From Rhodospirillales bacterium (GTDB lineage: Bacteria; Pseudomonadota; Alphaproteobacteria; Rhodospirillales; WMHbin7), in the NCBI GenBank assembly GCA_016214125.1, contig JACRPC010000030.1, forward strand, positions 124,001 through 188,000: a DNA stretch of 64,000 bases, written 5' to 3'. The notes beneath the pieces were generated by a model. That model did no database searches and was not told the DNA's origin. It saw nothing but the letters and a program-made list of their open reading frames with translations. Each line of letters opens with the position of its first letter. Within the stretch, counting starts at the first letter, position 1. Positions 11,825 to 56,001 of the stretch are shown one piece after another. The translations under genes and the position numbers were made by a program.

Positions 11825-12490
11825 TCAGTTCCCCAAGGGCATCTTCAACTCGCCCGCCTTAGGATCGGCGAATTCGAACAGCTTGCCGTCGAGCGCGATG
11901 CCCGGCTGGGCGTCGAACAGCGAGACGGTGGTGATCTGGCCCTGCGGGTCCTTCACCTTCCACTGCCGAAGCTGGAAGGGCTGCTGGGTGAAGACCAGGG
12001 TGATCTCGCCCGCCGCCGCATCCTCGGTCTGCACCAGCGACACGGCGGTCAGCCCGGCCTTGCGCTCGACCCGGGTGACGGTGACGTCGCCGCCCTCCAG
12101 CACCAGATTGCGCCGCACCAGAATGCCGGCCGGGGTAGAATTGAGCAGCACATAGCTCGTCTGCTTCAATTCGCTGTCGTGATAGACCAGCCAAGTGCCG
12201 GTGGCGACCACCAGGATCGGCACCGGTGGATCGTATTGCAGCCTAAGCTTGCCCGGCCGCGAGAGGTACAGATCGCCCTCGCTGGTGGCGCCCGAGGGCG
12301 CGACCTGCAGGAAGCGCCCCTTCAGGGTGCCGATCTCGTTGAGATAGCCCTCGACCCGGCCCAGCTCCTGGCGATCGTCGGCCGACAGCTTGGCCGGAAC
12401 CGGCTTGGCAAAGGCGGGCGGGGCGAAGACGGCAAAAGCGGAAGCCAGCGCCAGAAGGGCGGCGAGGAGAGGGGGGGCAAGGCGACGCAT
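11825..12490 (-). CDS. lolA: Outer-membrane lipoprotein carrier protein LolA
   Basis: 221 residues with a signal peptide (MRRLAPPLLAALLALA, cleavage about APPAFA-KP). The mature part matches LolA: an early GTLKGRFLQVAPSG, YLSRPGKLRLQYDPP, TGTWLVYHDSELKQ, and a C-terminal beta-strand series. LolA carries lipoproteins through the periplasm from the LolCDE exporter to the outer membrane. It is 11 bp downstream of ftsK, the frequent ftsK-lolA order in alphaproteobacteria, and probably the last gene of an aminotransferase-ftsK-lolA operon. Length is close to the family's usual ~200. Confidence 0.92.
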   Translation of the reverse strand: MRRLAPPLLAALLALASAFAVFAPPAFAKPVPAKLSADDRQELGRVEGYLNEIGTLKGRFLQVAPSGATSEGDLYLSRPGKLRLQYDPPVPILVVATGTWLVYHDSELKQTSYVLLNSTPAGILVRRNLVLEGGDVTVTRVERKAGLTAVSLVQTEDAAAGEITLVFTQQPFQLRQWKVKDPQGQITTVSLFDAQPGIALDGKLFEFADPKAGELKMPLGN

Positions 12491-12501: not shown

Positions 12502-14871
12502 TCACTCCAGCGCGCTGCGGATCAACACTTCCCGCTTGCCGACATGGTTGGCGGCGCCAACCACGCCGCGCTCTTCCATGATGTCGACGATGCGCGCCGC
12601 GCGGTTGTAGCCGATCTGCAGATGGCGCTGGATGAAGCTGGTCGAGGCCTTGCGCTCGCGCAGCACCAGGGCCAGGGCCTGCTGGTAAAGGGGATCGGAC
12701 TCGTCGGCGCCGTCGCCCAAGGCCGGTTCCTCCTCCTCGTCGACGGTGACCTCCTCGAGATAGACCGGCTCGCCCTGGGCGCGCAGATGATCGGCGACCA
12801 TCTCCACCTCGCGGTCGCTGGCAAAGGGTCCGTGGACGCGCTGGATACGCCCACCCGCCGCCATGTAGAGCATGTCGCCCTGGCCCAAAAGCTGCTCGGC
12901 GCCCTGTTCGTTCAAGATGGTGCGGCTGTCGATGCGCGACGTCACCTGGAAGCTGATGCGGGTGGGGAAGTTGGCCTTGATGGTGCCGGTGATGACATCG
13001 ACCGAGGGGCGTTGGGTCGCCATGATGAGATGGATGCCGGCGGCCCTGGCCATCTGCGCCAGGCGCTGGATGGCGGCCTCCACTTCCTTGCCGGCCACCA
13101 GCATCAGATCGGCCATCTCGTCGACGATGACGACGATGAAGGGCAGGGGCTCCAGCGTCAGGGGCTGCTCCTCGTAGATCGGCTTGCCGGTCTCGGGATC
13201 GAAGCCGGTCTGCACCGTGCGGGCCAGCTTCTCCTTTTTGGTCTTGGCCTCCTCGAGGCGCTGGTTGTAGCCGGCGATGTTGCGCACCCCCAATTGGCTC
13301 ATGGCGCGGTAGCGGTTCTCCATCTCGCGCACCGCCCATTTGAGCGCCACCACCGCCTTACGGGAATCGGTGACCACCGGCGAGAGCAGATGGGGAATGC
13401 CGTCATAGACCGACAGCTCCAGCATCTTGGGGTCGATCATGATGAAACGACATTGCTCGGGAGTAAGGCGGAAGACGAGCGAGAGGATCATCGCGTTGAC
13501 GCCCACCGACTTGCCCGAGCCGGTGGTGCCGGCGATCAACAGATGCGGCATGCGCGCCAGATCGACCAGCACCGGCGTGCCGCCGATGTCCTTGCCCAAG
13601 ACCAAGGTGAGCGGCGCCCCCGAGCGCTCGAAGGATTCGCTGGCGATCATCTCGCGCAGGAACACCGTCTCGCGCTTGGCGTTGGGCAGTTCGATGCCGA
13701 TGACGTTGCGCCCGGGCACCACGGCGATGCGCACGCTGATGGCGCTCATCGAGCGGGCGATGTCGTCGGCCAGACCGATCACCCGGCTGGTCTTGATGCC
13801 GGGCGCCGGTTCGAGTTCGTAAAGCGTGACCACCGGGCCGGGGCGGACCTTGACGATCCGACCCTCGACCCCGAAATCGGCCAGCACCGATTCCAACAGC
13901 CGGGCGTTCTGGGCCAGCGCGTCCTCGTTGGCGGCCTGCACCCGGTCCTCGCGGCCGGGCTGGGCGAGCAGCGACAAGGGCGGCAGGCGGAAGGCGGTGC
14001 TCTTCTTGCCCCTGGCCGCCAGATCGAGCGCGCCTTGGCGCGGGCTCCGGGGCTTGCGCGAAGGCGCCGCCTCGACCAGGCCGGGGTCTTGGCTGGGTTC
14101 GCTCAAGGCGGGCTCGCTGGGCGGGTGGGGGGCCGGGCCGTCGAACAGCCGGGGCTCCATCCGGCCGGGCCGGGGCGCGAGGAAGGCGCCGGCGCCCGCC
14201 GCCATGCCCCCCATCCGCCGTCCGGTCCAGGCTCCGGCGCGGCCGACCATGGCGCCCATGGCGAACAGCCGCGCCGCCGCCGCCTGCCAGTCGCGCCAGG
14301 GGATGTCGAGCGACAGGGCCAGCGCCAAGAGGGCCAACAGGGCCGCCGGCCCACCCAAAACGATATCGATGATCCGGGTCGGCAGGCCCAGGAACCAGGG
14401 CAGCGCCACCTCTTCCAGGCGGGTCAGGGCCAGCTTGCCCAGGAATCCGCCCAGACCGGCCTCCCAGCCGCCAGGCGCGGGCAGAAGCGCCAGGGGCAGG
14501 GTGGCGACAAGGGTGGCGAAGGCCAGAAGAAGTACGCGCAGCAGCGCCCGCCCGGGCGGCCGAAGGACCAGAAGCCTTAGGCCCCACAGCGCCGGCACCG
14601 CCACCAAAAGGGCCGAGGCGATGCCCAGCGTCTGAAGAAGAAGATCGGCCAGGATGGCGCCCGGCCGGCCCAGCGCGTTGCGCACCGGCCCGTCGGTCAC
14701 CGTGTTGAGCGAGGGATCGTCGGGCGCGAAGCTCGACAGCGCCCAACCCAGACCGATCGCCGCGGCCAGGATCGCCAATCCGCAAAGCTGGATCAGGCGC
14801 CGGCGCAGGAAATCGGCGGTGCCGCTGGGCAGGAAGGCGTCGGGACGCGACAAGGCGGGGTGGGTGGCCAT
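12502..14871 (-). CDS. ftsK: DNA translocase FtsK
   Basis: 789 residues. The first ~200 carry about four membrane segments (the first [17 protein letters not shown]). A short Pro/Arg-rich linker follows, then the motor: Walker A GTTGSGKS at 448-455 (Lys454) and Walker [11 protein letters not shown] with Asp584-Glu585. The C-terminal gamma domain ([16 protein letters not shown]) would read polar KOPS sequences on DNA. FtsK sits at the septum, pumps DNA and helps resolve chromosome dimers at dif. The linker is short compared with the long one in E. coli. The ATG at 14871 has a GAGGAG site inside the end of the upstream aminotransferase gene, so the two are tightly coupled. Confidence 0.96.
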
Positions 14872-14872
14872 C

Positions 14873-16060
14873 TCAGTAGCCCTCCTCAAGCGTGCGCGCC
14901 AGACGCTCGAGCGCGCCGGCGACGGTGTCGGGATCGTGCACCAGGGCAACGCGAATGCGCCCCTGGCCGGGATTGACGCCCTGCTCGTCGGGGCGGGCGA
15001 GATAGGCGCCGGGCAGAACGCGGATGCCCGCCTTTTGCCACAGCGCCTTGGTGGCGGCCTCGCCGTCGCCGACATCGAGCCACAGGAAGAAGCCGCCCGG
15101 CGGGCGGGCGAAGCCGAAGCGGTTGCCCAGGAATCGTTCCGCCAGATCGAATTTGGCGCGGTAGAGAACGCGGTTGGCGACCACATGCGCCTCGTCGCCC
15201 CAAAGCGCGATCGAAGCTTCCAGAATGGGCAGCGGCAGCACGGCGCCGCCATAGGAACGCAGGCGGGTGAAGGCGGCGATCAGCTCGGGATCGCCCACCA
15301 CGAAGCCCGAGCGCAGGCCGGGCACGCTCGAGCGCTTGGACAGCGAGTTGAACACCAGAAGATTCTTCAAGCCGCTGCCCAGACGCCTCGCCGCCTCAAG
15401 CCCGCCCGGCGGCGGCTCGCGGTCGTAGATTTCGCCATAGCATTCGTCGAGGGCCAGCGTGAAACCGAAGCGCCGGGCCAAGGCGAGGTTGCGGGTGAGC
15501 AGATCGAGATTGGCGACCCCACCTTGCGGATTGGCGGGCGAGCAGAGATAGGCCAGGGCCACCCGCGCCAGCAGGGCATCGGGCAGGCGGGTGTAATCGG
15601 GCGGGCCCATGCGGGCGTCGACGAACTGCACCTCGGCCCCGGCGATCAGGCCGGCGCCGGAATAGACCTGATAGAAGGGGTTGGGCACCAGCACGATGGG
15701 CTTCTGGCCGTCGATCGAGTCGGGCACGCAGAGCGTCGCCGCCATGTAGAGCGCCTCGCGGGTGCCGGCCACCGGAAGGATATGACGGTCGGGCGCCAGA
15801 TAATCGGCGGGCAGGGCGTAGCGGCGCCCCAGCCAGGCGGCCACGGCGGCGCGGAATTCTGGCGTGCCCGCCACCGGCGGATATTTGCCCCAAAGCGCCG
15901 GCGACCGCGCCAGGGCCTCGGCCAGCAGCGCCGGGGGCGCGTGCTGGGGCTCGCCGATCGACATGACGATGGGCGGGCCGCCCGGCCGCAATCCCTCCAA
16001 CAACGCCGTGAGGCGCTGGAACGGATAGTCCGTCAAAGCGTCGAGCCGATTGTTGCGCAT
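14873..16060 (-). CDS. Class I/II aminotransferase, DapC-like
   Basis: 395 residues, a fold-type I PLP enzyme. Visible motifs: [10 protein letters not shown] near the start, [12 protein letters not shown], the SPANPQG turn, [10 protein letters not shown], and the PLP lysine Lys242 in [16 protein letters not shown]. The sequence resembles the alphaproteobacterial group annotated as N-succinyl-diaminopimelate aminotransferase (DapC), a lysine/peptidoglycan enzyme; another keto-acid aminotransferase is possible. It is the first gene of the ftsK-lolA run. Its 5' side contains a structured stretch with an intrinsic terminator on the same strand (16117-16290), which may attenuate this operon. Confidence 0.85.
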
Positions 16061-16116
16061 GTCCGTTCACCCTCTGTAGCCGATAAAGGGTTAACAACCA
16101 GCAAATTTCGGCCGCG

Positions 16117-16148
16117 AAAAAAGGAGCCCGGCAGGGTCTGCCGGGCTC
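16117..16148 (-). terminator. Strong intrinsic terminator on the minus strand
   Basis: A perfect 11-bp inverted repeat, GAGCCCGGCAG (16124-16134) with CTGCCGGGCTC (16138-16148), has a 3-nt loop. On the minus strand it is followed after one base by TTTTTT (16122-16117). No minus-strand gene ends here; the next minus-strand gene starts 57 bp downstream. It therefore serves either a small RNA or a premature-termination (attenuation) event. Confidence 0.75.
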
Positions 16149-16290
16149 AAGTCCAGGGAGGATAAGATGCACGAAGCGATCGGCCTGAAGGCGGGTCCGA
16201 GAACCCGATCGCCCTTCCGAGGGATCACTTGCCAGGGAAGGAAGGGCGGGCCGATCCGGGCCAAGGGATCAAACAGGGGAAAGACCCCTT
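16117..16290 (-). ncRNA. Candidate structured leader or small RNA
   Basis: Read on the minus strand, this gap holds a series of possible stems. AGGGG/CCCCT (16275-16279 with 16285-16289). GGAAGGGC/GCCCTTCC (16240-16247 with 16211-16218). GCGATCGG/CCGATCGC (16176-16183 with 16205-16212). Last comes a strong terminator at 16124-16148. The two middle stems share bases 16211-16212, so they exclude each other, as in switches. It could be the 5' leader of the aminotransferase gene (start 16060) or a separate small RNA. It matches no RNA family that I recognise; a short frame, MAIGQRGLSPV, lies at its start. Confidence 0.35.
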
Positions 16291-16413
16291 TGCCCGATTG
16301 CCATTAGACCAAAGACAAGTGAAAGAATGATTAACGGCGATTGCCGATGCTCCGAAGCCCGCCTTGTGCTAGGACTGAGGCCAAGCAAGAAAACCGACGG
16401 GGAGGATCGAGGC

Positions 16414-17262
16414 ATGGTCCGCGCCAAGCCCGAAGAGGCGATCAAGGAGCAGGCGGCCAAGCTGGGCGCCTGGGTGGTGGGCATCGCCAGCGCCGAGGCG
16501 ATCAACAAGATCGCCCCCAAGGGCCATCGGCCCGCCGACCTGATGCGCGGCACCAAGAGCGTTGTCGTCGTCGGCACTGGCGTCACCAGCGCCGGCTCCT
16601 GGCGCGCCCCCAGCGCCCGCATCCAGGCCTCGATCGCCTACAACCGCACCCTCAACATCGTCATCGCCCAGCAGTTGGTGCCCTTCATCGAAAAGAATTT
16701 CGGCCATGCGGCGATGCTCTGCCCGCCCGGCTCGGCCAATGGCCGCCACCCCTATATCAGCCTGAAGCTCCTGGCCGAGATGGCCGGGCTGGGCACCCGC
16801 TCGATGGCGGCCGGCATTCTGCTCAACCGCCAGCATGGGCTTCTCTATTTCGGCGCCGCGCTGACCACGCTCGAGCTTAAGGCCGACGGCCCGCTCGACG
16901 AGCCGGTCTGCCCGCATCCCTCCTGCGTCAAGCTGTGGGAGAAGAAGGGCGTGCTGCCCTGCCTCGATTCCTGCCCGACCTGCCTGGACGGCGCGCTGGA
17001 AGACGGCGCCATCCAATGGATGGAGTACCGGCAAAGCTATTGCCTGCCCCGGGCCCAGACCTCGGCCATGGCCTCGTTCCAGAAGCTGATCCTAGAAGCG
17101 ATGAACGAGCCCGATCCGCAAAAGCGCAAGATGATCGTCTATGGCAATCATTTCTCGCGCGCCGTGGCTTCGCTCGGCTATTCGGCCGAACTGGTCGGCC
17201 AATGTTTCGAATGCATGCGCAAATGCCCGGTCGATATGGCGGCGCGGGCGAGGCTCGCATGA
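16414..17262 (+). CDS. 4Fe-4S protein resembling epoxyqueuosine reductase
   Basis: 282 residues from ATG 16414, with GGGGAGG (16399-16405) upstream. The C-terminus has QCFECMRKCP, half of a ferredoxin-type cluster site, and the middle has more cysteines (VCPHPSC, then PCLDSCPTC). The N-terminal half resembles the QueG-like domain that binds a corrinoid in epoxyqueuosine and dehalogenase-type reductases. A true QueG has two full 4Fe-4S motifs and is longer, so this is a shorter relative whose reaction is unknown. The gene is divergent from the aminotransferase, and a 102-residue protein follows 22 bp later. Confidence 0.65.
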   Translation: MVRAKPEEAIKEQAAKLGAWVVGIASAEAINKIAPKGHRPADLMRGTKSVVVVGTGVTSAGSWRAPSARIQASIAYNRTLNIVIAQQLVPFIEKNFGHAAMLCPPGSANGRHPYISLKLLAEMAGLGTRSMAAGILLNRQHGLLYFGAALTTLELKADGPLDEPVCPHPSCVKLWEKKGVLPCLDSCPTCLDGALEDGAIQWMEYRQSYCLPRAQTSAMASFQKLILEAMNEPDPQKRKMIVYGNHFSRAVASLGYSAELVGQCFECMRKCPVDMAARARLA

Positions 17263-55084: not shown

Positions 55085-55894
55085 ATGTCCGACCTCTATA
55101 ACGCCACCTTGATCGCTCGCATCGAGATCACGCCCCGTCTGGCGATCTTTCGGGTGCGTGTGGATGATCGGGTGTTCGACTTCACGCCCGGCCAGTACAC
55201 CGTTTTGGGCCTCACCGGTGAGGCGCCCAAGCTGCCCGAGGCCGGGGGCTCGGACGCCCTTGCCGCCGACCCCAAGAAATTGATCAAGCGGGCCTATTCG
55301 ATCTCGTCGGGCAGCCGCGAGCGCGACTTCCTGGAATTCTACGTCTCGCTGGTGACGAGCGGCGAACTGACGCCGCGCCTTTTCGCCTTGCCCGAGGGCG
55401 GGCGGCTGTTCGTGGGCGGCAAGCCCAAGGGCCTGTTCACCCTGGCCGGGGTGCCGGCCGAGAAGGCGGTGCTGCTGGTGGCCACCGGCACCGGCCTGGC
55501 GCCCTATGTCAGCATGCTGCGCACCCATTTGTTGGATGCCCCCGACCGACGCCTGGCGGTGCTGCATGGCGCCAGCTATTCCTGGGACCTTGGCTATCGG
55601 GGCGAATTGGAATCTCTAAGCCGCATTCGGCCCCATTGCCGCTATCTGCCGATCGTCTCCCGCCCGGCCGACGATCCCGATTGGGGCGGGCGAACCGGCC
55701 GGCTTACCACCTGGCTCGCCCGGGCCGATTTGGCCGAGGCTTGCGGTTTTCCGATCGATCCCGGGCAGGCGCATGTCTTTTTGTGCGGCAATCCGGGCAT
55801 GGTCGAGGAGGCGGCGCGCCTTTTGGAGGCCCGGGGCTATGCCCAGGGCGCCCGGGCCAACGCCGGCCCCTTGCATCTGGAAAAATATTGGTAG
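55085..55894 (+). CDS. fpr: Ferredoxin-NADP+ reductase
   Basis: 269 residues. FAD-binding half: FTPGQYTVLGL and RAYSISSGSRERDFLEFYV (RxYS). NADPH half: VLLVATGTGLAPYVSMLR. The C-terminus ends in LHLEKYW, a Trp/Tyr-type end as in the bacterial Fpr group. It balances ferredoxin/flavodoxin and NADPH, and could relate to the ferredoxin-linked oxidoreductase at the window start, though they are far apart. ATG 55085. Confidence 0.9.
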   Translation: MSDLYNATLIARIEITPRLAIFRVRVDDRVFDFTPGQYTVLGLTGEAPKLPEAGGSDALAADPKKLIKRAYSISSGSRERDFLEFYVSLVTSGELTPRLFALPEGGRLFVGGKPKGLFTLAGVPAEKAVLLVATGTGLAPYVSMLRTHLLDAPDRRLAVLHGASYSWDLGYRGELESLSRIRPHCRYLPIVSRPADDPDWGGRTGRLTTWLARADLAEACGFPIDPGQAHVFLCGNPGMVEEAARLLEARGYAQGARANAGPLHLEKYW

Positions 55895-55905
55895 CGAAAC
55901 AAAAA

Positions 55906-55933
55906 CGGCGTTGATCGGGCTTGATCAACGCCG
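55906..55933. repeat. Palindromic repeat with GCGTTGATC core (second copy)
   Basis: Arms CGGCGTTGATC (55906-55916) and GATCAACGCCG (55923-55933), loop of 6. Same core as at 30916-30939. Located 11 bp after fpr; an A-run precedes it, so on the minus strand it could also end transcription. Confidence 0.75.
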
Positions 55934-56001
55934 CTATCGACCCTCGCGTGGCGGCGCGGTCCGCCGTTTGTGATCGCGCCTTATTCTGCTAGGATTTCCT
56001 C

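Follow-up and report, generated by a model that had tools for sequence, protein, structure and literature searches.

A likely CUCCC-type small RNA upstream of a DapC-like aminotransferase-ftsK-lolA operon in Rhodospirillales

The alphaR8 family of small RNAs comprises MmgR of S. meliloti and SisA-D of C. crescentus and is represented in Rfam by the suhB model (RF00519). According to the accessible part of the report on these RNAs (PMC12559287), Caulobacter SisA represses its targets through an anti-Shine-Dalgarno 10-mer, UUUCCUCCCU, at the ribosome-binding site, and some genomes carry several alphaR8 copies. UpsM of R. sphaeroides, in the sections available of its description (PMC5089854), is a 206 nt RNA derived from a 268-nt dcw leader with about 1% read-through, and is described there as confined to Rhodobacteraceae. 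The SmelC671 family of Rhizobiales carries a single-stranded CUCCCUGU flanked by highly variable hairpins, of which the one on the 3´ side is a terminator (PMC3927594, as far as the text was accessible). Our literature search gave a single marginal entry for the order Rhodospirillales and found no paper tying dapC or ftsK to a small RNA and a terminator in Alphaproteobacteria.

In the window analysed here, a stretch of 64,000 nt from a Rhodospirillales genome, the minus strand probably encodes a small RNA of the CUCCC type, about 180 nt long (16117..16297), that would be driven by a promoter and act in trans; it ends 56 nt before a dapC-like-ftsK-lolA operon. The assignment is based on the sequence, the fold, similarity to a known family and the position before dapC in two genera.

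Gene order and the terminator

The operon consists, in order, of genes for a DapC-like aminotransferase (14873..16060, minus strand; TIGR03538, 414.8 bits, below the cut-off of 474.6), ftsK (12502..15252, minus; FtsK_SpoIIIE, alpha, gamma and 4TM domains) and lolA (11825..12475, minus, start approximate; PF03548). A tRNA-Gly called by ARAGORN within ftsK (14127-14211, minus) lacks Rfam support at the gathering score and is probably a false call. Between the ATG of the first gene at 16060 and a divergent plus-strand gene (16411..17262; weak similarity to QueG, 20.8 bits against a cut-off of 200), the minus strand holds a T-rich element, a -10-like hexamer, a GC-rich structured stretch, a core UAUCCUCCCUGGACUUGA and an intrinsic terminator.

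The terminator (16117..16148, minus), supported by terminator scans and shuffling and with counterparts in two sister-genus genomes (G001 and G002), has 11 Watson-Crick pairs (16148-16138/16134-16124) and a loop of 3 nt, followed by a C and six T at 16122-16117. None of 2000 dinucleotide shuffles of 15900-16600, each scanned on one strand, contained a perfect stem of 10 bp or more with five or more T, and the two strands of the 64-kb window together have just two such sites. The second of these lies at 55890-55935 on the minus strand (GGCGTTGATC...GATCAACGCC, TTTTT). A looser scan gave no excess (one site, 0.8 expected), which leaves the strict test as the informative one. A sequence-only reading of this DNA had reported the 11-bp stem with six U, had placed it 57 bp before the aminotransferase start and had noted that no minus-strand gene ends there. 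The stem is as described and the distance measured from its end is 56 nt. The minus-strand ORFs upstream, 16269-16622 and 16369-17034, are antisense to the plus-strand gene starting at 16411, so there is no credible minus-strand gene end at the terminator.

Family similarity, core and predicted fold

When all Rfam families were searched, the best match was to suhB/mmgR (RF00519), which aligned over the entire covariance model (16110..16185, minus) with 32.6 bits, below the gathering score of 41; SorY (RF02651) followed, also full-length, with 29.5 bits, far under its gathering score of 111. Against the whole of its own genome, the suhB/mmgR model placed the locus (E 1.0e-4) behind a copy on another contig with 62.1 bits (G000:C12:23935-24020), and two further matches scored similarly to the locus. 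A model built from 15 other family sequences with the locus itself left out (R1, roughly calibrated) gave it the top rank among all sites in 644 kb (27.6 bits, E 1.9e-6). The suhB/mmgR family is general in the order, since 138 of the 150 genomes searched matched at E <=0.01, a level at which controls gave matches in Caulobacter, a known carrier, and also in Thermus, and 74 exceeded the cut-off.

The suhB/mmgR alignment marks an anti-Shine-Dalgarno core, UAUCCUCCCU (16155..16164, minus), which agrees with the alphaR8 10-mer in nine of ten letters and is followed directly by the terminator. The part that the RNA would expose is UCCUCCCU (16162-16155), of which 16162-16160 is weakly paired with 16154-16152 in the predicted fold. 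Because the score lies below 41 and the 10-mer is not exact, we do not file the RNA as alphaR8; the full-scoring copy of this genome is also the one on the other contig. The 149 nt that precede the terminator contain four copies of UCCCU against 0.89 expected, a count reached in 1.4% of shuffles for what was one of five patterns tried; one copy is in the core and two, within UUCCCU and AUCCCU, are in a hairpin loop further upstream.

Two other small-RNA loci of this genome were noted in passing. The full-scoring mmgR copy (minus strand) has TGCGTTGCAGCAAA upstream, which resembles a PhaR site, and TTGCASTGCAGCAA-type repeats similar to it precede mmgR in several relatives. A second CUCCC-type RNA (G000:C46:20957-21037, minus), with ATATTGCGTCGCAGCA upstream, consists of GGGTCYTCGGAYCCTACGTCTCCYAGACGTGAAGCCTCCCTGTTTGACTT and then a terminator. 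Its motif resembles SmelC671, and RNAs of this type recur in several genera of the order (L155-L162, L170 and L171), with a deviating 5´ part in L159 and L160.

The region 16300-16110 has a predicted folding energy of -88.9 kcal/mol, compared with -72.4 +/- 4.3 for shuffled sequences (z -3.88; 0/200 shuffles as good). In the best fold of 16297-16118, a 5´ hairpin (16257..16296, minus) is followed by a three-way junction (16178..16256, minus), then by a weak hairpin that encloses the core and, last, by the terminator. The junction has an outer helix (16256-16249/16185-16178), a stem at 16248-16240/16218-16210, whose loop holds the two UCCCU copies, and an inner hairpin (16207-16202/16197-16192).

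The sequence-only reading had seen the layout of a transcription switch in this region, and an attenuator or riboswitch ruling the operon through mutually exclusive stems would explain why two 8-bp stems, 16247-16240/16218-16211 and 16212-16205/16183-16176, share bases 16212-16211 and why a terminator precedes the start codon. The sequences and the overlap are as described, and the first stem is part of the predicted junction. The second, however, is not expected to form, as forcing it costs 12 kcal/mol in constrained folding (-76.3 against -88.3 for the best fold), and neither stem touches the terminator arms. Constrained folding gave no antiterminator, since forbidding the terminator pairs left the rest of the fold unaltered (-65.1 against -88.3 kcal/mol), and in a transcript ending before the 3´ arm the 5´ arm met weak local pairs only as competitors. 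The predicted structures of the G001 and G002 units differ from this one and no riboswitch family of Rfam matched the locus, in line with the earlier remark that it resembles no recognised riboswitch. We therefore consider such a switch very improbable. Attenuation through a leader peptide was dropped, as none of the short frames inspected by eye in 16300-16100 resembled one. Among the attenuator, the riboswitch and the small RNA that had been offered together, it is the small RNA that the sub-threshold suhB/mmgR match, the sister-genus units and the conserved upstream element support.

Upstream element and conservation before dapC

A -10-like hexamer, TCTAAT (16303..16308, minus), would place the start of the RNA at about 16297, and an upstream element, TTAATCATTCTTTCAC (16319..16334, minus), is common to this genome and the sister genus at the locus. 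A simple scan found no consensus sigma-70 promoter here. The derived pattern TTAAYCNTTNYTTNAC occurs once in each of the genomes from which it was drawn (G000, the genome studied, G001 and G002), always at the dapC locus, so that its presence there is given and the result is its rarity elsewhere: G003 has a single copy, at an unrelated site, and neither G004 nor the reversed control gave any. From the TTAATC element to the hexamer the spacing is 20 nt for TCTAAT here and 18 nt for GTTAAT in the sister genus. The upstream element also resembles the CtrA consensus, TTAA-N7-TTAAC; control by CtrA was dropped, as the perfect pattern occurs three times in the genome against 19 for reversed controls.

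The aminotransferase was found at E <=1e-60 in 24 of 40 relatives (the genome itself counted), including two of four sister-genus genomes, G001 and G002, the two without it being 87% and 81% complete. In both, the same-pattern element, TTAAT, CUCCUCCC and a terminator precede dapC, and the gene upstream of the unit is different in each of the three genomes, the only ones in which a comparable unit was found. The G002 unit matched suhB with 23.1 bits (genome E 0.025) and has a fold z of only -1.8; the suhB model did not match the G001 unit at E up to 3, and R1 scored it at 10.1 bits (E 1.2). Compared with each other, G001 and G002 agree at 26/33 positions of the promoter part, 83/123 of the body, 25/31 of the terminator, where one pair is altered on both sides in a compensatory manner, 40/41 of the spacer and 287/300 of the dapC start. 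The body thus evolves fast, as the contrast with the dapC start shows. A global alignment of all three units failed to align the terminators and was discarded; as far as sequence comparison goes, the unit of this genome and those of the sister genus share a plan, with a body that is not alignable between them. Two loci, L129 and L130, share CGGGACUCC, GGAGU and ACUCCUCCCG in the body, and alternative pairings are possible in them. Judging from the sequence, the conserved upstream pieces CGGGA and GGAGU can mask the anti-Shine-Dalgarno core in the sister genus.

Beyond these genomes, 35 of 102 Rhodospirillales dapC loci, which include some contigs twice, have a terminator-like site within 350 nt of dapC. 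The upstream gene in the loci shown is mostly amtB (recognised by eye), and the sites could be the terminator of amtB. In the gaps before dapC, the suhB model matched L103 (25.5 bits) and L129 (23.1 bits), and L107, L126, L130, L132 and L144 gave nothing at E up to 3; among the five loci tested outside the taxonomic family, only L103 matched (17.9 bits with R1), and the presence of a small RNA there is patchy. A motif scan with TCCTCCCT, which missed variants, found nothing at this position in 80 loci. A DNA search of 60 relatives gave one other match, in G027, which does not adjoin dapC on the stretch seen; a reading frame of that stretch matched no Pfam family. The G028 gap holds several CUCCC motifs, placed in predicted hairpins, and gave no model match. 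The amtB-dapC gap of L132 combines a terminator with hairpins and linkers that carry CUCCC motifs ([CT]TCCC four times against 1.3 expected), and resembles a further small RNA or a 3´-UTR RNA of amtB.

The frequent amtB-terminator-dapC order elsewhere in Rhodospirillales, the location of the amtB copies of this genome at other sites and the fast evolution of the body would all suit a leftover terminator of a lost upstream gene, such as amtB, with no functional RNA. The similarity to a small-RNA family extends beyond the terminator, though, two genera retain the upstream element and the fold has a z of -3.9, so we give this explanation very little weight.

A different question is whether the promoter also serves the operon. 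As in UpsM, one promoter might drive the RNA and, by rare read-through, the dapC-like-ftsK-lolA genes, the RNA being a by-product or a dual-function leader. The geometry is that of UpsM (about 180 nt here, with 56 nt to the ATG), the unit keeps its place at dapC while upstream genes change, and the dapC spacer of this genome has no -10-like hexamer better than shuffles (85% as good). Against this, the 41-nt spacer between terminator and dapC in G001 and G002 is nearly identical and contains TATATT, which lies 10 nt ahead of the ATG (7.5% of shuffles do as well) and by its sequence could plausibly belong to a promoter of dapC itself. Many other Rhodospirillales have dapC behind amtB and its terminator, an order in which dapC needs its own promoter or read-through. 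A -10 common to dapC orthologues is too weak to claim (mean best score 7.98 against 7.50 for shuffles, 41/65 above; of 80 loci with a usable start, 65 remained once near-duplicates had been removed). On balance, we think an UpsM-like leader RNA unlikely. A second, independent case of the UpsM kind, in which a base-pairing anti-Shine-Dalgarno RNA arises by termination inside the leader of this operon for peptidoglycan precursors and chromosome segregation, and a single promoter sets both the RNA and the level of read-through, seems to us similarly doubtful.

Comparison with described small RNAs

A trans-acting small RNA is thus the explanation we favour, with two points in the sequence comparison tempering it: the suhB/mmgR and SorY scores lie under the curated cut-offs, and the body appears poorly conserved, the G001 unit lacking a suhB match. 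We infer that transcription would start at about 16297 from a promoter near TCTAAT and stop at the terminator (16148-16117), giving an RNA with variable hairpins on its 5´ side, then UCCUCCCU, which would be largely exposed, an ACUUG stretch and the terminator. By analogy with SisA of Caulobacter, UCCUCCCU could base-pair, presumably with the help of Hfq, to the Shine-Dalgarno sequences of target mRNAs, and pairing at ribosome-binding sites would lower their translation. The locus would thereby add a likely small RNA to the Rhodospirillales, and suggests that a fast-evolving CUCCC-type RNA can remain tied to one operon despite changing upstream neighbours.

The RNA shares with alphaR8 the single-stranded UCCUCCCU core, an ACUU stretch, a terminator straight after it and the full-length model match. 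It differs in its sub-cut-off score, the one deviating letter of the 10-mer, an additional 5´ structured part of about 110 nt, a different genomic neighbourhood and the separate full-scoring copy in the same genome. With SorY of R. sphaeroides it has in common the full-length match and a GGACUUG before the terminator, at a score far from the cut-off of 111 bits. UpsM has a similar length and spacing and likewise ends at a strong terminator a short way ahead of a division and cell-wall operon, a likeness of geometry and location; UpsM lies at mraZ/dcw, whereas the RNA described here lies at dapC-like-ftsK-lolA. If read-through does drive the operon, this would be a second UpsM-like link of small RNAs to cell-wall and division genes. 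SmelC671, compared by the accessible part of its description, likewise presents a single-stranded CUCCCU motif amid variable hairpins and a terminator, with CUCCCUGU there and CUCCCUGG here. We regard the RNA as a likely additional member of the CUCCC-type trans-acting small RNAs.
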